Below, in pieces: positions 33,161 through 59,465 of a DNA stretch of 64,000 nt. The position numbers were made by a program, and so were the translations under genes. Within the stretch, counting starts at the first letter, position 1. Each line of letters starts with the position of its first letter. The stretch is from Isoetes taiwanensis (lineage: Eukaryota; Streptophyta; Lycopodiopsida; Isoetales; Isoetaceae), in NCBI GenBank assembly GCA_021234155.1, contig JAJEKV010000016.1, positions 21,641,863-21,705,862 of the forward strand, given 5' to 3'. The notes under the pieces are model-generated. The model saw only the letters and a list, made by a program, of their open reading frames with translations, was not told the DNA's origin and searched no databases.

Positions 33161-34144
33161 TCCAAGCCATATCTGTAGCAGAATTTGTTGATTTGGATCC
33201 AATGAAAGAAGAATATGTGAACGACCCCTCCTTTGTTGTTCCGTATGCACAGGTACAAAAGGAGGGAAGAGACCTTTTGGCAGAGTATAGAATCCATAAT
33301 GGGATCTTATTCTACCGGAATCGTACTTGTGTTACACAAGCATGTAGGTTGAAAGTGATACATGAATGTCATGAACCTCCTTATTCCGGACATAGAGGAA
33401 CTCAAGCTACTTTGGCAACTGTGAAACGACATTTTTTTTTGGCCAAAACTTGAAAGGGATGTAAGAAAGTATGTTAAAGCATGCCTTGTTTGTCAACAAA
33501 TAAAAGCTTCTACTGGTAAGCCTGCCGGATTAGTTCAACCCTTGCCTATTCCAGAAAAACCATGGAAGCATATTACCATGCATTTTATTCAAGGGTTACC
33601 AAAGACCATCCACAAGAATGATCAAATTTGGACAGTGGTAGACAGATTGTCTAAACAGGTTCATTTTATTCCCTGTAAATCCAACATGACTGCGCCACAG
33701 GCAAGCAAGATTTTCTTAAAGGAAATATTTAAGATCCATGGAATGCTAGATGCAATCATAACGGATAGGGATCCCCTATCCTGTAGTAGATTTTGGGTTG
33801 GGCTTATGAAACATTTAGGCACGACTCTAAAGTTTTCCACCGCTTATCATCCCCAGACGGATGGCCAATCTGAAGTGGTAAATCGAGTTATTGAAGATAT
33901 GCTGAGAGCTTATGTTGCAGAAAGACAAAGCCAGTGGGAGGAATACCTTTATCTTTTAGAGTTTGCCTATAATAACATTGTGCACTCAGTTACCCAAAGA
34001 ACTCCCTTTGAAATAGTATATAGATATTCCTTGGAGTCCCCAATTGCAAAACTAGGGGGAGAAGTACCTGCTTCCGATGAAGCCGCTACAGATTTTGCAG
34101 ATATCTTACGGGAGGTAAAGGTACGAATCCAGAAAAGCCAGGAA
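33161..34144 (+). pseudogene. Gypsy integrase, first catalytic Asp replaced
   Basis: A zinc-binding H-H-C-C region (HECHEPPYSGHRGTQATL, about 33361) is followed by the core from 33542. In the core ITMHFIQGLP has His (codon 33581-33583) where the catalytic Asp of MDF is expected. IITDRDPLSCSRFW and YHPQTDGQSEVVNRVIE keep the second Asp and the Glu. A frameshift near 33450 separates the two parts. The frame is cut at 34144 by the DNA transposon and continues at 41106. Confidence 0.85.
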
Positions 34145-34178
34145 GGTGTAAATATGATAATGCTACCCAAAAAGCACC
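34145..34178 (+). repeat. Left terminal inverted repeat
   Basis: 34-bp TIR. It differs from the right TIR at about three positions, one being the length of the A run before GC. It is followed by the subterminal motifs AAGTGCT, AGGTGCTT and AGGTGCTTTT at about 34186-34213. Confidence 0.9.
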
Positions 34179-34418
34179 GTCTGGACAAGTGCTATAGGTG
34201 CTTGAGGTGCTTTTTACTCGATGAATTTTCGTTCAACGACCTCGGGGGTTGTTACTTCAGAAATAATATGCATGTTCCGGTTGGGGAGGGATCGATGACA
34301 TGGATGTCCCCGCGCAAATTGCCAGAGCAATCCTCATGTTTGGCGGGATCTCAAGTTGGTGGGATTCTTGAGGAAAGTTTTCTTTCTTGGATTGTCATTC
34401 TTCCCAAGCTCCGTTATC

Positions 34419-37400
34419 ATGGCTAAAAATTCACTGGCAATTCTCAATTCTAATTCCAATCCCAATCCCAATCCCAATCCCAATTCCAGTTCTCCATTGC
34501 ACCTCTATTTTATGGCCAATTTTGAAAGTCTTGATGATCAGAAGAGGAGAATTTATCTGGAATTTGAAGCCAACGGAAAAAGAGAATCGAGAAAGAGAAT
34601 GAAAGAAAGGGAAAAGGAAAACATTCCACCAAACGAGAGGAAGAGAAAACAATGGCTTAGTGAAAGAAGATTGCAGGAACTCTCAAAAGAGTTAGATGAT
34701 TCTTTTAATCACATTGTCAGGAACGTTGCTGAGGATTTGGATAAAGGGAAAGTTCTTCAAAAACTTTTCAAGAGAAACAAACATTTGCCATTGCAAGCAG
34801 ATGTACCAGATCCCAGGGATATTGCTATAATGAAAACCATGATTGTGAATGTTAGAGAGACAATGCAGGCACAAAAAATGCAAAGAACAACTGATGTCCT
34901 CCAAGCAAGAAAGAGCACCCTTCAAATGGCAGCATCTTCGATAGGAGGAATTAATCAATCTGCAATTTCAAGGGTTCTATCTGTTCCAAGAAAAACTATT
35001 GCCATGGCATTTAGAAGACGTATATTTGCAGAGTGTGAAGCTGGACCTTGATCAATATTTGGAAGGATGAGAAGAAGTGACGCATTTTCAGCTGAAGAAA
35101 TATCCACGGTGAGGAAGTTTTGGGATGAAAATACTAGAGTCTCACCTTATAAGAAGCATGTGAGGAAGCATTTGGCTGAAAATGGTGATAAAATTGATCA
35201 TCCTATTCATTTGCTAGAGATTACACAGGTAATAGTTTCGACCAGAAATTTGGAATGTTGTGCACTAATTCTTTCATTCACTTTATAAAATAACTAAATT
35301 TATTATTGTAATTGTGTTCAGGTACAATTGTACCTTGCTTTCAAGAAGGAACATCCTAATATAAAGATGTCCCAGCAGGCTTTTGAAAAACTGAAGCCAA
35401 GCTATGTAAGAAAACTTCAAGAAAGGGAGACTTGTTGTTGCCAATACCATTTGCACTTAGAATTTACAAGGCAGGCCATCAACAATATGAGGACAGATCC
35501 TTATGGTGTTCATAAGGATTGTAAGTGTCAGTGCAAGGTTTATGGACCAGGTCTAATCTGCATGGCTAAGGAGAACACCATCAGATCAAGTAGTGATTAT
35601 TGGAGAATGGTGGTCTGCCAAAAGGATGAGAGTGATGAGTGGCATAAGCATGTGTGTCTGATGCAGACTTGTACAAAATGTGGTTTAAAGAAGTGAGTAC
35701 ATGGTTTCCTTTGTTCCAAACCTATAATTTTGCTTTCTATTTACCATGTTCGCTATAATGTATTGTAGGCTGGCAACATGTCCTAAGGAGAGGAATAAGA
35801 ACAAGACTTACAATGTGAATTGGAAAGTATTTGAGAAGGTAATGACTTGTGAATTGGAAAGTATTTGAGAAGGTAATGACTTTCAAATTAGATTGCAAAG
35901 TGCATTTAGTGACTTCATTAAATATGATTCAATCATATGACTTCCATATCAGGAGCTGATAAATTGGCCTTAACATGACAGGTAGAAGTCCAAAGGAAGA
36001 AGACATTGAAGTCATCTAAGAAACCTCCAAAGGTTACAAAATTGGCCTATAAATTGGGTAGTCCTTTGAATTTAATGAGCATGCAAGAAAGACTTTGAAA
36101 TCTTTTGTACCTCATAATTATAGAGCTCATTGGCAAGCCAAGGAATTCAGGAAATGCTTGGCAACACTTCAAGATGATACCATTGTTTCTGTCATAGATT
36201 TTGCTGAAAATTGTGGATTTAAGATCCAGCAAGAAGCTCAATCCTGTCATTGGCATACTGACCAGGTGTCAATTCTAGTGCATATAACCTATAGGAGGAT
36301 GAAAAAGGAAGAAGAAGAAGAAAGAAAAAAGAAAGAGGAAGAGAGCTCATGCAAGAAGAACAAGAACTTGGCCAAAGAGAAAAGGAAACAAAGTCTCCAA
36401 GGTATTGTGAAGGAAACTCATTTCTATATTAGTGATGACAAATCAAATGACACAGAATATGCCCAACATTGTCTACAAATGCATGCTGATTAGTTGCAAA
36501 GTATTGGAGCTAAATATAAAAAACATGTGTTTTGGAGTGATGGATGTTCTTCACAATTCAAGTCTTCGAGACCATTCCACTTTCTTGGTAGATTTTATGG
36601 GAGAATGGGCAAGGATCTTCTATGGAATTTTTTTGCTAGCTCACATGGGAAAGGTGAGCATGATGGTGTTGGAGCAATTATAAAGAGGATGCTAACTCAA
36701 GAGCTAATGAAGTATAATGGATGGAAACTACAGTGTGCAAAGGAGGTAGTTGCTTTTCTTAAATGGCACTTTGAAAATCATCCATCTGATCATGACATCA
36801 AAAGGTATAATTTTGTAGTGTTTTACAATTTTATCAGACATTTCAGCACTTCAAGCAATCGTCAAAGACTTAAAGCACTTGCTTTTCATATTGTTACAGG
36901 TATTTCTGGGAGGTAGAGTCTTCAAAGATAGATAGATCAGAAAGATTGGAATGCCATACTTTAAAGGGAACTCAATTGCTCCACTCCATAAGACCATGTG
37001 ACAAGGAGCATTCAATTTAAGTGGGACAAATGCATCAATATGAGTCGAATTGGTGTTTGGGCAACCATTGAGTTGAGGTTGAAGGATCCTAAGAATACAG
37101 GTGATAGCAATGATTTGCAAAAAGATGACGAGTATGATGTTGAGGAAGAAGAAGAGGATGAAGATGATGTAATTAGTTCTATGATAGAAGTGGGTGACAA
37201 TTTTGCTGTAAATGCTGAAGAAGGGAGTGAAGAAGGGGTAGATTTTTATGTACTTAGATGCACTGAAGCAAAGAATACTTTGCTAGAAGATTATAAGGAT
37301 GGATGGGGAAATGTATTTGGGATTGAAGAAGTTATTGTGTCAGGACATTATTATAAACAAATTGATGGTGGTCTAAGGTTTCAACTATTGCAGAATAAGC

Positions 37401-37537
37401 CAGTGGCCAGTGTATACAGCCATCTCGTTAGACTTTCTAAATTTGACATGATTGCAGATGAAGATGACTCAGACTTGTATTTCATGGCAGAAGAAACTTG
37501 CCAGCAGATCATGAGTAGTCTACCACCTGCATCATAG
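34419..37537 (+). pseudogene. DDE-like transposase of the nested transposon, multi-exon
   Basis: The ATG at 34419 opens a Lys/Arg-rich N-terminus. Introns with GT-AG ends are visible at 35229-35321, 35693-35768 and 35839-35981. The Cys-rich middle (CCCQYHLHLEF, DCKCQCKVYG, CLMQTCTKCGLKK) may bind zinc. The later part has IVSVIDFAEN, CHWHTDQVSILVHITYRR, HFYISDD, then VFWSDGCSSQFKS (about 36528-36566) and SSHGKGEHDGVGAIIKRM. I associate this order with uncharacterised DDE transposase-like proteins of plants and invertebrates; the acidic residues are candidate catalytic sites. The C-terminus is acidic. Damage: TGA at 35049-35051, TAG at 36491-36493 and a frameshift near 37010. A 35-bp tandem copy of the exon 3 end and donor sits at 35838-35875. 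Confidence 0.7.
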
Positions 37538-38039
37538 AAGGTAATTTGTACAAAATCATTTCTACAGTTTAAATGTGGAAATCATTTCTGTATCAATCTG
37601 CCAAATTGAGGCATATCTGCAGTTTAAATGTGAAAATACATTGAAATAGCTAGACAACAACACTTTACTACTAAAAATGTAACTGAATGAAAACAGAGCA
37701 AGACACTGAATGTTAAAAGAGCAAGACACACAAAATTGAGCTGAACTGTGAATCTGTTAGCTTGAGGCCTGCAATGTCTTTAAAGTATTGGACAAACTTG
37801 AAGCAAGAATAACAAAATAACAAGATAACAAAACATAACAGAATTGAGGCAAAGTTTTACTCGTATAGTATTACAAAGTGTTTCACAAAATTGAGGTCTC
37901 AGCCTCTATGTCAAAGTTTTCACAAAATTGAGGCATATCTGCACTCATATACTATTACAAACAGTTTCACAAAATTGAGGTCTCAGCCTCTATGTCAAGG
38001 TTTTCACAAAATTCACATGTATTTACAAGAAGTATTCTT
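37538..38039. repeat. Intergenic part of the transposon with tandem repeat
   Basis: This lies between the convergent genes. A unit of about 80 bp (TTTCACAAAATTGAGGTCTC...GCCTCTATGTCAA) occurs twice at about 37878-38010. It probably represents the two 3' UTRs. Confidence 0.6.
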
Positions 38040-38592
38040 CTAGGCAATAGTCAAATATTTCGTCATCTGCTCCAACTGATCAGCACTGAAATGTTTATCA
38101 AAACCATCCACTAACCACTTAATCTGACCCTTGCAGTAAGCTCTAACTAATAATCTCTGATCCTGACCAATTTATTGCTGAAATAGTGCATCCAGAACAC
38201 CTAGGGATGTTCTTGTAAAAGCCTCTGCCCTAGAATTTATCTTCAAAATTGCAGAAAGGTCTTCAACCTGTGCAACTTGTCTAATCATTGGAAGCAAATA
38301 AGAGTTAAGAATATCATCATGAGGATCACTCATAAAAGTAGGCACCATGATGGATGTGAATGGTGGGGACATGTATGTCTTGTATACTTCATCATCTGCA
38401 AGAACCACATTATTTCCATATTGTGGAAAAGCTTCATACACCTTATGAAGTTGCTTCATGAATACTGGATTTGCAGATTCGAGTGGCCATTTGAAAGGCA
38501 TCTCATCACAATATTTCTGGTCCCACACAAATACAAGTTTACCTTTGGTAAAAGGACAGACAACATCAAGAACACAACACGACCAATTTGTT
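38040..38592 (-). pseudogene. FCP1/NIF-type phosphatase C-terminal half carried by the transposon
   Basis: On the minus strand: LTNWSCCVLDVVCPFTKGK, then KLVFVWDQKYC, FMKQLHKVYEAFPQYG and NNVVLADDEVYK, followed by PPFTSIMVPTF. This is the second half of the NLI-interacting-factor (FCP1-like, HAD) phosphatase fold, with the WxQ strand and the DD-Y-K metal-binding loop. The N-terminal DxDxT nucleophile motif is missing here and is not found nearby. A TAA at 38172-38174 interrupts the frame, which then runs on to the TAG at 38040. It lies within the TIRs and in line with the accessory gene at 38.9-40.8 kb. That suggests host exons captured by the transposon, or a far diverged transposon gene. 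Confidence 0.6.
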
Positions 38593-38934
38593 AGTGGTTG
38601 ATGTTCTCAAAAGCTGAGTGCTAAGCCGTCTCAGGTCTTCTCTTATTTGATTGGTTCTTCTATAACATGCAATTCGGTGATATTCAAGAAAAGAGTACAA
38701 TTAAAATTTAAGAGTAATAACCTCGAAGTTACATTGCTGAGTTGCAAATCAGTTACAATTATACTTTGCAACTCGGTAGACCTGATGTTCAGACAATTAA
38801 TTAAGTGAATACAGGATCAATAGATCCACAAAAACTTCAATTTAAATTAAAAAGTCATAAACCTGGAAGTTAAATTGGAAACAGTTAAATCCTCATCAAA
38901 TTGTACTATTTGTGAATCCCTGAACATTAAAATA

Positions 38935-40843
38935 TCATTTATGAATTAGTGCTCTCAAAGAAATATTTGAATTTCCTCTAAGAGCATCCATAATTGCTGC
39001 AAAGTTACTATTTGTACCTTCATTGTGTACAGATTTTGCTGCAGCATTACCGTCTTGTTCAAAACCTGTATCTACACCAGTAGGATCTACATTTGCAACA
39101 TCTTCAAGGGTGGACCTTATATTCTCCATAATTGTCTTCTCAACACCCTCTTCTTCCCCGTCTTTATTCATATCGATGTGCATTCTCCGTCTCAATGGAT
39201 ACTTTCTACCCTCCCCAATTTTTTTCTTGTTCTGCCTGGCCTCAGTCCCCTTTTTTCTTGCCAGTCCCAACTTCAACCCCTTTGGTCTTGCTATTGTCCT
39301 TCCCTTTCTTCTTCTCAACTATAGCATCCTTGTTTGGTGTTGAGTGCTTTTGTTTCTTTCTGTTTGGAGTATCCAACATACATTCAACTTCACTCTCATT
39401 AAGACCTGCATGCCTCCGAACCATCTGCCTTCTCATCCCCAATTTTACCACTACTTCTCAATTGCCTTGGACTCAACATCTGAACTTGATCACCTAACTC
39501 TGCAAGATCTGGCTCAAAATCAGCATCCCTTGCATGTCTCAGCCTCCTCTTTCTGCTACTAGAAGGGGACTACAACTGCTCAGGCAGAACATCTATTAGA
39601 CCTTCAATATCAGGCCGAGCTGTATTTGATCCCAAATCAACCCGAGCTGTCTTTGATCCAACATCAGATTTCTTATGAGTTAATTTAGGATCAAAAGAAG
39701 CAACTTGCTCTATTCCTGTTGGAGTATTCATACCAAGTTCAACATAAAGGTCTTCAGGAATATTACATTCACATTTCAAACATCTCCCTTCCTTCAACAA
39801 TGCAGCACACATCACATGATATTCATGTTCACCATCAAGAAGTATGAACATCTTGTATTTATCATGAAAACTTAAACCACAAGTAATACAATAACTTTAC
39901 AAAAAACCTGGTAGCTTTCTTTTGATGGTGTTGATGCAGAAAGGAGAGTTGGTGATCTGCCTCGGACTTTCAAGGTGGCTAGCATGTTCTTTTGCTGCAT
40001 TTAGCTCAACATCATTTTCAGTTATCTGAGCTTCCAATGACTCCTTCTTCAATGCAGAAGTGGATCTCCAGGTTTGCAAACAGACTCCAAAGATTCACAG
40101 GCATACTCTTCAAACATCAATTTCTTTTCCAATTCTGTGATTTCTAACTCCAATTCCTTTGTACTAATCAAAGCTCTCTTCTCGGCAATACTAGACTTAA
40201 GTTTTTCCATATTACTTCTTTTTTCAAACAACCTTTTGAAAATTTTATCATTTGATTTCTCATCAGCAGCCAGGCTAACAACAATATCTTGCATTTCTAT
40301 TCCCATCTCAACCTTTTTTATCTCAAGCTTCTTTAAGTTTTCTGTCATTAACTGCAGGTTATGCTTCAAATAGGTCTGATCTAGAATAGGCTTAGGATTT
40401 TCTTTTGCAGAAATATCAGGTTTGGTATCAATTTTAGCTTTTGCTTTTTGTTCCTTTTTTCTCGGCCTGCATTTCTTGTACATCATAACCTGTGCACCAT
40501 ATGAAGCCCAATTTATCTGATGACCTTTGGGATCAAGCAATCCTTCAGGGCAATTTTCCCAAACAAAGGCATAAGCAACCTGTTTTCTTACTTCATTGTT
40601 ACAAACGCCATCTGGATAAAATACTCTCAATAAGCTTTCCAATTTTCTTCTCAAATGTGGTCGAACAAAATGAACCTTGATTGCAGACTTTGAGTTGAAA
40701 GGTTCCTGCCAAACGGATTTCCATTGATCCTTTGTAACTTGACTTGCTAGCCAATTGTACTTCAAATGGGGCTGCTGCAGACCCTCGTTTGACAAACCAT
40801 GCAAAGCAACAAAATCCTCCGCTGTTACTGCCTCTTCTACCAT
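38935..40843 (-). pseudogene. Coiled-coil / RING-like accessory protein of the transposon
   Basis: The first in-frame ATG is at 40841-40843. Residues 1-120 have no match I know (KYNWLASQVTKDQWKSVW; VRKQVAYAFVWENCPEG). A basic patch (KKCRPRKKEQKAKAK) is followed by about 130 residues of coiled coil (ELELEITELEKKLMFEE), up to a break near 40050. After a probable intron (about 39890-40050) comes a Cys/His cluster: CITCGLSFH, GEHEYHVMC, GRCLKCEC (39765-39890), resembling a RING- or PHD-type zinc finger. A basic, low-complexity tail follows, with a TAG at 39570 and a frameshift near 39300, ending at 38935. A role as a partner of the transposase or in chromatin binding is inference. Confidence 0.55.
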
Positions 40844-41009
40844 TTCGCTTGATTGACGAAGATCAGTTCTGGATAAACGATCTATGTTGTGGGCGGGCAA
40901 AGAAATTGGGAAAAGGATACTCTGCTATAGAAAAGTAGATCAAATTTGGGACATCGAATGATTGAGAAAAAGCTTTAGGCGCGGGAACCGAGGTCGAGGT
41001 ACTAGAAGG

Positions 41010-41017
41010 TATTTATA
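41010..41017 (-). promoter_or_regulatory. TATA box of the transposon accessory gene
   Basis: TATAAATA on the minus strand lies just inside the right TIR and about 170 bp from the first usable ATG at 40843. Transcription would start near 40985 and run inward. Confidence 0.5.
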
Positions 41018-41071
41018 CCGTGCGGTCACGAATTCTGTCGACCACAAGTGCTTTAGGTGCTGAGTGCTTTC

Positions 41072-41105
41072 GCGCTTTTTTGGGTAGCATTATTATATTT
41101 ACACC
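41072..41105 (-). repeat. Right terminal inverted repeat
   Basis: Inverted partner of 34145-34178. The adjacent subterminal motifs AAGTGCTTTAGGTGCTGAGTG (41046-41066) match the left subterminal set on the same strand. They are therefore direct, not inverted, copies, as expected of internal transposase-binding sites. Confidence 0.9.
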
Positions 41106-41616
41106 CAGGAATTAATGGCTTCCAAGCTTGCAAAGAAACGGAAAAAAAGTTGTTTACAAAAAAGATCAATGAGTCTGGATTCATCTTCCCAAAAAGCGTC
41201 TGCGGAAGATGGGTAACCGGTATGTAAAACTAGCACCTAGGTATTATGGTCCATTCCAAGTTGACGACAAAGTCGGTGAGAATGCTTATCGTTTACATTT
41301 ATATATAAAGTGGACTAACTTGCATCCCGTTTTTAACGTGGGAATACTGAAACCCTATAAGGGAAGTGAAATTTCTCCTGAGATTTTGCAGAGAATGGAG
41401 CAATCAGAACCTCCCAATATCAAGGGTGATGAAGAGGTGCTGGAACCGGAGAAAATATTGACACACCAAGATAAGGAGACTAGGAGTTCTTCCTATCGAA
41501 GATATCTTGTGAAATTTAAATTTCATCCGTCCACTGATGCGGTATGATATTTTAAGATTCAATTAAAAGAATACGGCTTCTTGGTGGAAGAATACGAAAG
41601 AACTTTGCAAGAATAA
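41106..41616 (+). pseudogene. Gypsy integrase C-terminus and chromodomain
   Basis: Continues the integrase after the DNA transposon. A damaged linker (stop/frameshift near 41170) comes first, then KRLRKMGNRYVKLAPRYYG and GPFQVDDKVGENAYRLHLY. A chromodomain follows (VLEPEKILTHQDKE, RRYLVKFKFHPSTDAV). A TGA at 41545-41547 stands where this fold usually has Trp, and the frame then stays open to the TAA at 41616. Confidence 0.85.
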
Positions 41617-46991: not shown

Positions 46992-48768
46992 ACATGGCAA
47001 TATCTGCTGCAGGGGATTTTAGTACAGACGAGCTACTAGATTATGCCCGCGAGCTCTATACTGTGCCAGGGGCAGCCCCTAGGGATTTAGTATCGGGAGA
47101 TGTGCCAGATATATTTGATGTGGAGGATGTAAAGATATCTTTGCAAAAGATGGCAAATGGGAAAGCTAGAGATACTGAAGGCTTTGCCATTGAGATGCTT
47201 AAATGGGGAGGGGAGACTCTTCATGCTAAAGTGGCCGAGTTGTTTAGCTTGGCGCTTAATGTTGGTTTTCCCAACCAATGGTGCCAGAACATGATTGTGA
47301 CTATTCTAAAAGCTGGGGATCCAACTTGTATTCAGAATATCGCACTATTATGATTAGTAGTGTGATGGCTAAGCTCTTTGGGGCTATAATCGAGAAAAAG
47401 ATTTCTGGTTGGGCTGATACGCATGGGGTGCGAGCCTTAGGCCAAACAGGTTTCAAAAAAGATCACTCCACAGTGGATCACCTAGTAACTTTGCGCGTCA
47501 TGGCAGAGGGAGCTAAGGGTGCAGGCCATGCATTATACTGTTGTTTTGTTGATTTTACGAAGGCATTCGATAGAGTACCTCGTACACATCTAGGAGCACG
47601 TTTGGATAATTTGGGTATACCTATTCCATTACGAAAGGCAGTTTCACGGCTATACGAAAAAGTGTTGGTGGAACTTACATTTCCATTAGATGGCCTAGAG
47701 AAAGTAGAGAGCAATATTGGGGTGAAGCAGGGGTGCCCTCTGTCACCCACACTTTTTGGCCTTTTTATTGATGAGACTGAGGCATGGTTAATGAACGCGG
47801 ATGTGGGAGTGGAGGTTGGTGAATATTTTCTGAGACTTTTGCTTTATGCTGATGATGTGATACTTGTTTCTAGGACAGCAACGGGTTTGCAGCATTTGTT
47901 GTATGTGCTGGAGCAGTTTTGCAAGAAAACTGGTATGAAAGTGAATAAAACTAAGACTAAAGTTATGGTCGTTGGTTCTCGAGAATCAGTAGTAATGCAT
48001 CTTGATGGGGAAACTCTGGAACAGGTAAAAAGGTATAAATATTTGGGGATTGAGTTTACTAGGCGGTGGGGAAACGCGTGTCTGGAGGTTTCCGTGCTTT
48101 GTATTATTCTCTGAGTCTGTGGCGACAAAGAAACATCTGGTGTTGGTCTCTTAGGAGGCTTATCTTTAAGGTAATGGTGCAGACAGTTGTGCTTTATGGT
48201 TGCCCAGCTTGGGGGCCAGGTTTAGCCAGGGCAAAGTGGATGGAAATTGAACAGGTACAGAAGAGATTTCTGCTAGAAGCTGGGGGTAAAAGTTCAAACT
48301 CCTTATGAGATGTTATTAGCAGAGGCGGGATTGTATCCACTGGAGGTGGAAGCGTTGTTTCAAACTCTTACCTACTATCAGAGGGTACGGAGCATGGGGG
48401 GTAATTTGAAAAGGGACGAGAACAAGGGATCCCCAGAGAGCTGCGTTTCTGCCCATGTTGTTTTGAAGCACAAGTGGAGGATGAAGACCATGCTTTGATT
48501 AGATGCTCGGCCTTTGAGTATATACGAGAAAGTCACCATATCACGTGTAGCTCTCTATCAAAGCTATTCGATCTTTCTCCATTAGATCTTGGAGCATATC
48601 TTTATGAATATCTGAAATCTAGAAATGAGTTATTAGCTCTATATAAGATGGCTGAAAACTTGCTCGCCCAAGGGTGAGCCTTTGTTGATTAATACTGTTG
48701 TTTTCTATTTTCGCTGATGGACCTGAGGGTCTGAAGGCGTGACAATAAATAAATAAATAAATAAAAAG
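46992..48768 (+). mobile_element. 5'-truncated (TAAA)n LINE
   Basis: A non-LTR element carries reverse transcriptase, a C-terminal zinc-binding segment and an AATAAATAAATAAATAAA tail (48744-48766). GCCAC...AAATCCCACT (46970-46991) before it and GCCAC...AATCCCACT (48769-48789) after it agree at about 17 of 21 positions. They are a plausible aged target duplication that fixes both ends. It shares tail type and C-terminal pattern with the LINE at 1-632. Confidence 0.75.
46994..48680 (+). pseudogene. LINE reverse transcriptase
   Basis: The polypeptide runs from the pre-RT segment (VEDVKISLQKMANGKA) through RT blocks: YRTIMISSVMAKLFGAIIE, ALGQTGFKKDHSTVDHL, YCCFVDFTKAFDRVPR, GVKQGCPLSPTLFGLFIDE, the catalytic LLLYADDVILVS (about 47835-47870), and VNKTKTKVMVVG with KYLGIEF. 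The C-terminal FCPCCFEAQVEDEDHALIRC is a zinc-binding segment. Frameshifts near 47320, 48060, 48300 and 48470 inactivate it. YADD is intact. Confidence 0.85.
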
Positions 48769-57134: not shown

Positions 57135-59465
57135 ATGCAAGTTAATTTTTGGGGGCCTTGTGATTCAATTTGTTGCATGAGAAGATGCTGCGCAAACTTC
57201 TCAACAGCGGACATTAGGTGCATGCGTACCTTCTTTTGGAACTTGACTGCTTCAGACAGGACCACATTTGTTTATAATATGTTAGATGTTTGTTCAGAGA
57301 ACGGACAGGTGAAGATGCTCATGCTAAATAACAAGCAGGTTTGTTTGAAAGCATGGCATATAGCCTATGGTATTCCAATGTCCACTTTCTATAAGTGGCG
57401 AAGACTTTTCCTTGCTGGTCACAGAGTTGCTGAACATGGTAACACGGGGACGAAAAAATCGAGGTCTCACACTCTAGCAGGGAAAGCCGTGTTGTCTATG
57501 TACATAGATGAGAACGCTGAGACAATGCCCCACAGATCAAAAAGCAGTACTGAAGGTGTGAGAGAGAATGTGAAGAGGCTCCCCTCTGTCCTAACCAAAA
57601 AGGACATTCTTCATGAGGTGAACGCCAATGTGATGGAGATGATAGGCAAGCACGTCTCTCATTCTTCATTTTCACGTGGGTGGAAGCTAAATCACAACGA
57701 GGTTGCAATAGCTAAAAGGATAGCTTTCTCTAAGTGCAATACATATATTGTAATAAAAGAGAAAATGGCTAAGACGAGAGATCCAAGGGAGAGAAGAGAA
57801 TTGCAGATTGAAAGGAAGGCACACATGACTGCCCAGATCTCTTGTAGGAGCTTGTACTGGTCATGGAGAGCTCTGTCCCATCGATCACCGGATCAGGCGC
57901 TCACTATCATACATGATAAAATGGACCAAAACAAGGCTATGATTCCAAGACTGGAGAAATTAGCAAAGTCGGTATGGAGAGGTGAACGCTTGAAAGTTAG
58001 TGTGACTGGTGCACTGATGCATGGCCATGGCATAGGTGCATTGGGACATTTCTCACTCGACCTTTGGAAGGATGATTCAAACTTTCATGTTGGTTCCTTG
58101 AATCATGCTATCAAAGCACTAGAGGATACTTCCGAAGGTAATTGGGGCCATTTGAGAGAACAAGGACGGCCTGAGGGCATGTGGGTCAATGCACTCCTCG
58201 ACAGTGCGGGTTTGAGGACCAAAAAAAGCAATTGCACTGGACAAGACTTTGTAGCACCTCCTAAGCAACCTTCGCACTTTAAGATGTTACCTAGGCGTCT
58301 ATAATTGCAGCTAGACAATTGCGCTGGGCAGAATAAGAACAGATATCTCTTCTCTTATCTATCCTATCTTGTGTGGTTGGGTGTATTTGATTAGATACAA
58401 CTTGGCTTCATGATGGTAGGCCACACTCATGATGACATTGATGCACTATTTGGTAACTATTCAACGTTAATGCGCAGGTCTGATGCTCTAACTCTTCCAG
58501 AACTAATGCAACTCTTCCGAGAATGTAGCACAAAGGCACCAACACCATATCTTGTTACCGAGGTTCCCGATTGGAAGGGTTTCGTCGAAGGATACATTCC
58601 TGATAAAAAGGATCGTTTGGTTGGTCACTTGGAGCCGTGTTTAAGTTTTGCATGAATGATGGGTGGCCAGTAATGTATTACAAGATGAGACCTGGTCATA
58701 GAGAATGGTTGCCAGAGTGTGGAAAGCAGATGACAATGGTTTGCCAATGATACCGATTGGATCGCCCAAGACTGTCAAGCCATATGCAAGCCTCAAAGAC
58801 ATAGGAGCATTGAGGTTGCAAAGTACATGGTGCATTGGGCTAATATCTCCAGGGTTGGTGTGAACTCATGGTCCAATACCTACATGAACGAGGTCATAGA
58901 CTATTGGTGCGAAGTGATGCGTGTTCTAGGTGAAGTACCCCCGGGCAATGCAGAAATTCAGAACTTCTGGCCACGCACAAGGCAAGTTGTGCTTGACGAG
59001 CCTGAATCTATTCAGGTCGATCGATACGATGCTCCAACTGCCTTCGTTGGACCTGCTAAGGATAAACCCAAGAACGCAGTGGAAATATTTGATCCACACC
59101 AAGATGTACAGAAAGGTATGTTTCTGCTTGTAAGACCAGCAGATGCATGTCCTACATGGGTAGCCTATGCAGAGGAGGATCCTATACAGGACCCCACTGC
59201 ACCTCATTATAATGAGGTTTTTGTGTCTTGGTGGGAGCCTGTGGCTAGGAAAGGCACCGCATACGCTCAACAGTATCGAGAGTGCTGGCATAAAAAGTGG
59301 AGGCCGAATCCTAATGACAGACCACGTTATCAGCCTCTCAAAACAATAGACTATGCTTGGTTAGTTGAACCAAAGCCATTGCAAGTTGTGATTCCTGCTA
59401 GCGTAGGAATCCAGGTGCAAGAACTATTGGCTAAAAAGGCCTCAGAAGACGTAGAAGAAACTTGA
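57135..59465 (+). pseudogene. DUF7869-family transposase-like gene, decayed
   Basis: One long protein broken by a few lesions. The N-terminus has a Cys cluster (CCMRRCCANF), then TFFWNLTASDRTTFV, VCLKAWHIAYGIPMSTFYKW, the SFSRGWK segment, and ALTIIHDKMDQNKAMIPRL, then LMHGHGIGALGHFSLDL. Past a TAA at 58302-58304 the frame continues LQLDNCAGQNKNRYLFSYLS and, past a TAG at 58391-58393, LGFMMVGHTHDDIDALFGNY. A frameshift near 58640 leads to FKFCMNDGWPVMYYKM. From 58827 the C-terminal 213 codons are open. DNCAGQNKNRY and VGHTHDDID are the hallmark of the family I know as DUF7869, widely thought to be transposase-derived; the paired Asp residues are candidate DDE residues. No intron is needed to explain it. 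Confidence 0.75.

Follow-up and report, generated by a model that had tools for sequence, protein, structure and literature searches.

A degenerate, probably Sola-like DNA transposon of Isoetes taiwanensis with convergent transposase and accessory genes and a 4-bp target-site duplication

The stretch analyzed here (hereafter the window) comprises 64 kb of contig C974 from the genome of the lycophyte Isoetes taiwanensis. A DNA transposon of 6,963 bp was found in it at positions 34144-41106, inserted into the integrase sequence of a Ty3/gypsy element. A transposase gene on the plus strand and an accessory gene on the minus strand converge inside the transposon. With high probability it is a degenerate copy of a family of cut-and-paste transposons with terminal inverted repeats (TIRs), probably Sola-like, in which transposase and accessory gene form two convergent modules. 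The features of the locus are the following:

33425..34143, plus strand: Ty3/gypsy integrase sequence, the insertion target, left side
34140..34143: left target-site duplication (TSD) AGGA, 4 bp
34144..34173, plus strand: left TIR; its canonical first base, G, reads A in the window copy
34419..37537, plus strand: transposase gene, with splice sites deduced from the sequence
36065..36808, plus strand: catalytic core region with the motifs VIDF, WSDG and HDGxGA (tblastn with the core protein P0001, 83.9% over 248 amino acids; alignment A1)
40843..38040, minus strand: accessory gene region of deduced structure, with a putative ATG at 40843 and the stop at 38040-38042
38172..38606, minus strand: phosphatase remnant (PF03031 NIF, E 1e-4, 22.4 bits vs a cut-off of 21.8)
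41077..41106, minus strand: right TIR, terminating ..ATATTTACACCC
41107..41110: right TSD AGGA, 4 bp

The inverted arms of the two ends span 29 nt (34145-34173 and 41077-41105) and are 97% complementary. The TIR pattern occurs twice in the window and in none of 100 shuffled sequences. Thus the ends are inverted repeats, as the preliminary description of this locus had stated, but with a length of about 30 bp and not of 34 bp. The insertion target was identified by Pfam matches to Integrase_H2C2 (E 2e-8) and to rve (E 4e-6; 27.6 bits, under the cut-off of 32.6). The joined flanks, corresponding to the empty site, were found in 103 other places of the I. taiwanensis assembly (1,658,258,908 bases in 1110 contigs) with up to three mismatches, four of them exact, while the reversed control gave none. 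The proposed nesting in a gypsy integrase is therefore well founded. The gypsy-like open reading frame (ORF) to the right of the insertion (41173-41547) is shifted relative to the frame entering from the left, so that the target gypsy copy is itself degenerate and the uninterrupted gypsy frame once described for both sides does not exist.

To determine the TSD, 18 stretches with further copies were fetched, of which L047 and L048 were dropped due to a missing right end; together with the window this gave 17 complete copies. With GGG..CCC as the ends, an exact 4-bp duplication is present in 14 of these and a longer one in none, for which the chance is about 1e-31 if equal base frequencies are assumed. 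The perfect 6-bp duplication CAGGAA, by which the ends had been fixed before, turned out to be accidental. It arises from the true duplication AGGA, an A replacing the first G of the left end, and a flanking C identical to the terminal C on the right. Thirty loci were retrieved by an exact TIR match. In 28 of them GGTG is preceded by a G, and in the other two, L013 and L017, by an A; L017 is the locus in the window. An element with a 6-bp TSD, either IS3EU-like or new, as read earlier, is hardly credible any more: CAGGAA does flank the window copy on both sides, but GG..CC ends with a 6-bp duplication fit only four of the 17 copies (the window, L032, L041, and L046) and the ends are not of the TA..TA type of IS3EU. 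Duplications of another length, named in advance as speaking against the earlier reading, are what the complete copies carry, and with them the 6-bp argument for classification is lost. The complete transposon as such is real, with both ends present at 34144-41106.

The family is large. The TIR ends have 321 and 319 matches in the genome at up to three mismatches (reversed control: 0), which would correspond to about 320 copies, if most ends are paired. The search for further copies that had been suggested was thus successful with 640 end matches, as was that for empty sites. The 17 complete copies share their ends and fall into seven of 6.0-9.2 kb, eight of about 1.7 kb and two of about 0.27 kb. 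The uninterrupted transposase core P0001, taken from copy L035, matches at least 140 places with 56-100% identity (the best 138 of 9286 candidates were scored); a few of these places are pieces of one copy. A divergent family on contig C970 (L079/L085/L086) shows 56% core identity and has an uninterrupted transposase frame of 627 amino acids. Long minus-strand ORFs further downstream in the C970 copy resemble Helitron/PIF1-type helicases, as judged by eye.

Both the multi-exon transposase on the plus strand and the convergent block on the minus strand were recovered as previously described, with exons deduced from the sequence. For the transposase, these are 34419-35228, 35322-35692, 35769-35838, 35982-36804, and 36900-37537. 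The window gene is interrupted by an in-frame TGA (35049-35051), a TAG (36491-36493) and a frameshift between 36053 and 36065, and relative to copy L045 it has a 50-bp deletion at about 37009. A perfect 34-bp tandem duplication (35814-35881) spans a predicted exon end together with its splice donor, which is thereby duplicated.

The core was examined in an alignment (A1) of 19 cores, P0001 among them, which were chosen for long open frames from the screened loci. The aspartates of VIDF (19/19 rows), WSDG (18/19), and HDGxGA (18/19) are conserved with spacings of 116 and 40. Core pairs with finite dS (7 of 21) have a ratio of nonsynonymous to synonymous substitution rates (dN/dS) of 0.10-0.21, a sign of constraint on the coding sequence of the core; the other 14 pairs are saturated. 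The exon after the core, which is the last one, contains a conserved CxCxxC knuckle in 29 of 57 sequences, including that of C970; three of these sequences repeat one place and many others stop short of the exon. No curated Pfam or NCBIfam cut-off is reached by the core. DDE_5 was the sole transposase model listed for the 19 cores (one core, E 0.38), next to unrelated matches below cut-off down to E 0.0014. A PDB sequence search with the core gave no match at E ≤ 1, and the profile of A1 gave La-related protein 7 (E 0.015) and two mL105 chains (E above 1), none of which is convincing. No relative of the core was found in viral contigs, phages or prokaryote contigs.

The accessory gene encodes, in this order, a conserved N-terminal domain with a coiled coil, a Cys/His-rich RING-like finger, a basic linker, and an NIF/FCP1-type phosphatase. 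In the window it is broken, as it lacks the LDLNG stretch and has an internal stop. By its reading frames the window copy is therefore coding-dead and encodes no intact protein, though its ends are nearly canonical. The phosphatase of a related copy, P0002, matches PF03031 clearly (E 4.5e-19, 69.1 bits vs a cut-off of 21.8), TIGR02251 below cut-off (E 4e-10), and in the PDB the phosphatase UBLCP1 (3shq, E 1e-4). The RING-like finger was read by eye from its Cys/His pattern. The C970 version matches zf-RING_16 below cut-off (E 0.11, 12.6 bits vs 27.4), and for the main-family protein P0003 no RING model was listed in the Pfam search.

The LDLNG stretch is present in seven of the eight copies examined, the window copy being the one without it. 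In all seven it is preceded by a TAG|G acceptor-like site, and in four of them (L031, L045, L043, and C970) there are in-frame stops within the 120 nt upstream. Because of these two features the LDLNG part is most simply explained as the final exon of this gene, which would then make one spliced protein consisting of a coiled coil, a RING-like finger and an HAD domain of the NIF/FCP1 type that carries the motif DLNG. The classical motif of HAD phosphatases is DxDG. Since DLNG departs from it, phosphatase catalysis is uncertain. The phosphatase shows signs of purifying selection in one pair, L032 vs L035 (dN/dS 0.22, dS 1.0).

A phosphatase match lies within 6 kb of 55 of the 140 listed transposase matches, where 0.15 would be expected for random places, and all 55 are convergent to and downstream of the transposase. 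Sorted by transposase identity, such neighbors accompany 40 of 54 matches (80-100%), 12 of 38 (70-80%), 3 of 27 (60-70%) and 0 of 21 (50-60%). At least 132 phosphatase matches (the best 127 of 5235 candidates scored) and at least 114 matches of the RING protein (the best 112 of 2406) were found. Of the 132 phosphatase matches, the 70 best were compared with those of the RING protein: 49 have a RING-protein match within 4 kb, in each of the 49 cases upstream and on the same strand. The C970 copy L085, which belongs to the 50-60% class, was read directly and contains a RING-like part (45.6% over 79 amino acids, E 1.5e-17) and, over 41 amino acids, a match (E 2e-4) to the beginning of the phosphatase with LDLNG, the remaining phosphatase being absent. 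Judged by these arrangements, the accessory block belongs to the element as one of its constituent modules.

The two halves have different histories. The transposase halves of the window, L031, L032, and L045 are 90-95% identical. For the accessory half, the window and L045 form one type (91.6% identical), and L031 and L032 form another one (90.3%, in a block which also covers part of the transposase), with 76-77% between the types. The block of high identity between the window and L031 stops about 150 bp past the transposase stop. Such a mosaic structure seems best explained by recombination that swaps modules between elements. Two tandem copies of 84 nt, 87% alike, were observed between the convergent genes at 37838-38005, near the junction of the swapped modules.

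Further features were noted elsewhere in the window, all on the plus strand. ORF 47260-48111 encodes a reverse transcriptase (RVT_1, E 1e-30), which probably belongs to a long interspersed nuclear element (LINE). The long open frames 57135-58301 and 58734-59462 may represent another transposon-type gene; the former has a weak match to DUF7869 (E 7e-4, 19.7 bits, below the cut-off of 26), the latter has no Pfam match. ORF 11342-12406 matches DUF4408 above cut-off (E 9e-6) and is possibly a host plant gene.

Based on the above, the transposase would be an RNase H-fold enzyme of the DDD or DDE type. It would bind to the 30-bp ends, cut the element out and join it to the target with a stagger of 4 nt; it may also act in trans on the short copies. 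The accessory protein might act on host phosphoproteins or on transcription or silencing and in this way help the element, a guess that we offer tentatively. Several observations weigh against a cut-and-paste, Sola-like family with two convergent modules. Three of the 17 complete copies (L037, L038, and L042) have no TSD, and a scan of 9.2 kb around the divergent C970 copy revealed no TIR. As D103 and D164 are also invariant in A1, the third catalytic residue is ambiguous and the triad VIDF/WSDG/HDGxGA is only a proposal; a glutamate in FWE(V/I)E of the next exon is an alternative. The AlphaFold model of the core, with a predicted local distance difference test (pLDDT) score of 42.4 alone and 37.5 with 19 family members, supports no RNase H fold. 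Furthermore, for 85 of the 140 listed cores the phosphatase list has no entry within 6 kb, and conversely the core list has none within this distance of 75 of the 132 listed phosphatase matches. The sign of selection on the phosphatase comes from a single pair, and the likeness to Sola is one of published descriptions.

Transposons often carry fragments of host genes. The phosphatase/RING block could therefore be a passive capture without function for the element, which would agree with the stop codons in many copies of the block and with the unusual DLNG motif. We regard this as unlikely, since order and orientation are kept beside transposases down to 64% identity, the RING part and the phosphatase start even accompany a transposase of 56% identity, the phosphatase has a low dN/dS in its one pair, and the accessory half was swapped between elements as a unit. 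At the other extreme, the family could be a superfamily of seedless plants apart from Sola, whose mobility needs a DDD/E transposase together with a fusion of RING and HAD phosphatase that alters the phosphorylation of host proteins, e.g., of the RNA polymerase II C-terminal domain or of silencing factors, with modules reshuffled at the junction. This, too, appears improbable.

A convergent two-module family that is probably Sola-like remains the preferred reading, and the chances are about even that it truly belongs to Sola (Sola1 or a sister group), with only the accessory gene being new. According to the excerpted descriptions, Sola is a superfamily with a DDD transposase and a 4-bp TSD, is present in moss, and has elements of mostly 2-9 kb with TIRs of 11-1124 bp (PMC10741241). 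Physcomitrella Sola1 and Capsicum are listed for it (PMC9033089), and SOLA elements are more numerous in Azolla than in Salvinia (PMC6786969). The elements described here agree with this in their 4-bp TSD (14/17 complete copies) and in size (coding-size copies of 6.0-9.2 kb, n = 7) and TIR length (about 30 bp), which lie inside the published ranges; their aspartates would fit a DDD triad. On the basis of TSD and plant distribution the element is probably Sola-like, as compared by description only. Speaking against membership are the possibility that the third catalytic residue is a glutamate and the AWWT preference excerpted for some amoeba Sola2 elements, which fits just three of the 14 TSDs. 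In the main text of the Isoetes genome paper (PMC8566536), a word count gave neither "Sola" nor "DNA transposon". Rather doubtful, though less so than passive capture, is a new superfamily of plant DNA transposons with 4-bp TSDs unrelated to Sola. The GGG..CCC ends, the RING-phosphatase module and the core without a Pfam or NCBIfam match above cut-off, a convincing PDB match or a viral, phage or prokaryotic relative would fit it, but Sola models may be missing from Pfam, and a TSD of 4 bp is a trait of Sola.

Among other superfamilies, the 4-bp duplications remove an IS3EU type and point to Sola. IS3EU elements usually have 6-bp TSDs and TA..TA ends, as stated in the consulted part of PMC10045372, so that IS3EU/GingerRoot was ruled out by the 4-bp TSD and the GGG..CCC termini. 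Kolobok shares a 4-bp TSD but is TTAA-specific and has a C/DxxH motif according to the section of PMC9587614 used here; TTAA is found in none of the 14 TSDs, by which both Kolobok and piggyBac were rejected. The C/DxxH motif, which in hAT/MuDR/P/Kolobok/Dada stands between the second D and the last acidic residue, is absent between WSDG and HDG in all 19 rows of A1; outside this stretch, similar strings are DLKH far downstream in L062 and CMDH, which occurs in C970 alone where the main family has CIQF. Harbinger-type DDE and rve (Ginger1/integrase-like) were not among the families listed for the 19 cores by a search in which most weak matches are filtered out. To the extent that Pfam and motifs can tell, hAT, MULE, Harbinger, and Ginger were thus rejected. 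CACTA-like relatives (EnSpm/CACTA, Chapaev, Transib), whose signature is C(2)C and H(3-4)H between the second D and the last E, are disfavored: the 19 rows contain no CxxC and no H(3-4)H was seen by eye after the knuckle. The CxCxxC conserved in the last exon could, however, belong to a CACTA-type signature. The statement that the element is unlike the common plant superfamilies accordingly holds for the Pfam models of hAT, MULE, CACTA, and Harbinger, none of which was listed for the 19 cores, and is weaker for CACTA. What is corrected is the basis on which this large lycophyte transposon family is to be classified, namely a 4-bp instead of a 6-bp duplication.

The accessory protein is related to NIF/FCP1/dullard-like HAD phosphatases, as seen from the PF03031 and TIGR02251 matches of P0002, and differs from them by LDLNG in place of the classical DxDG, by being transposon-borne, and by its position behind a RING-like domain. 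A search of titles and beginnings of abstracts for transposons with NIF-type phosphatase or RING accessory genes revealed nothing with this architecture, and the Sola descriptions, as far as excerpted, do not mention such a gene. Should mobility or escape from silencing depend on the phosphatase, the manipulation of plant hosts by a transposon would become directly testable. Accessory genes as such are known from eukaryotic DNA transposons, with TET/JBP, alpha-kinase, Fanzor, and homing endonuclease genes among those named in the source excerpts (PMC12730594 and PMC9587614, among others). Sola2, too, can bear one, as Fanzor1 passengers have been described in it. In TET+ fungal elements of the IS3EU type, an alpha-kinase gene is oriented against the transposase (PMC12730594, in the part consulted), and an opposing accessory gene is likewise present in the elements described here. 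The conserved phosphatase/RING-like gene of Isoetes would join this set.

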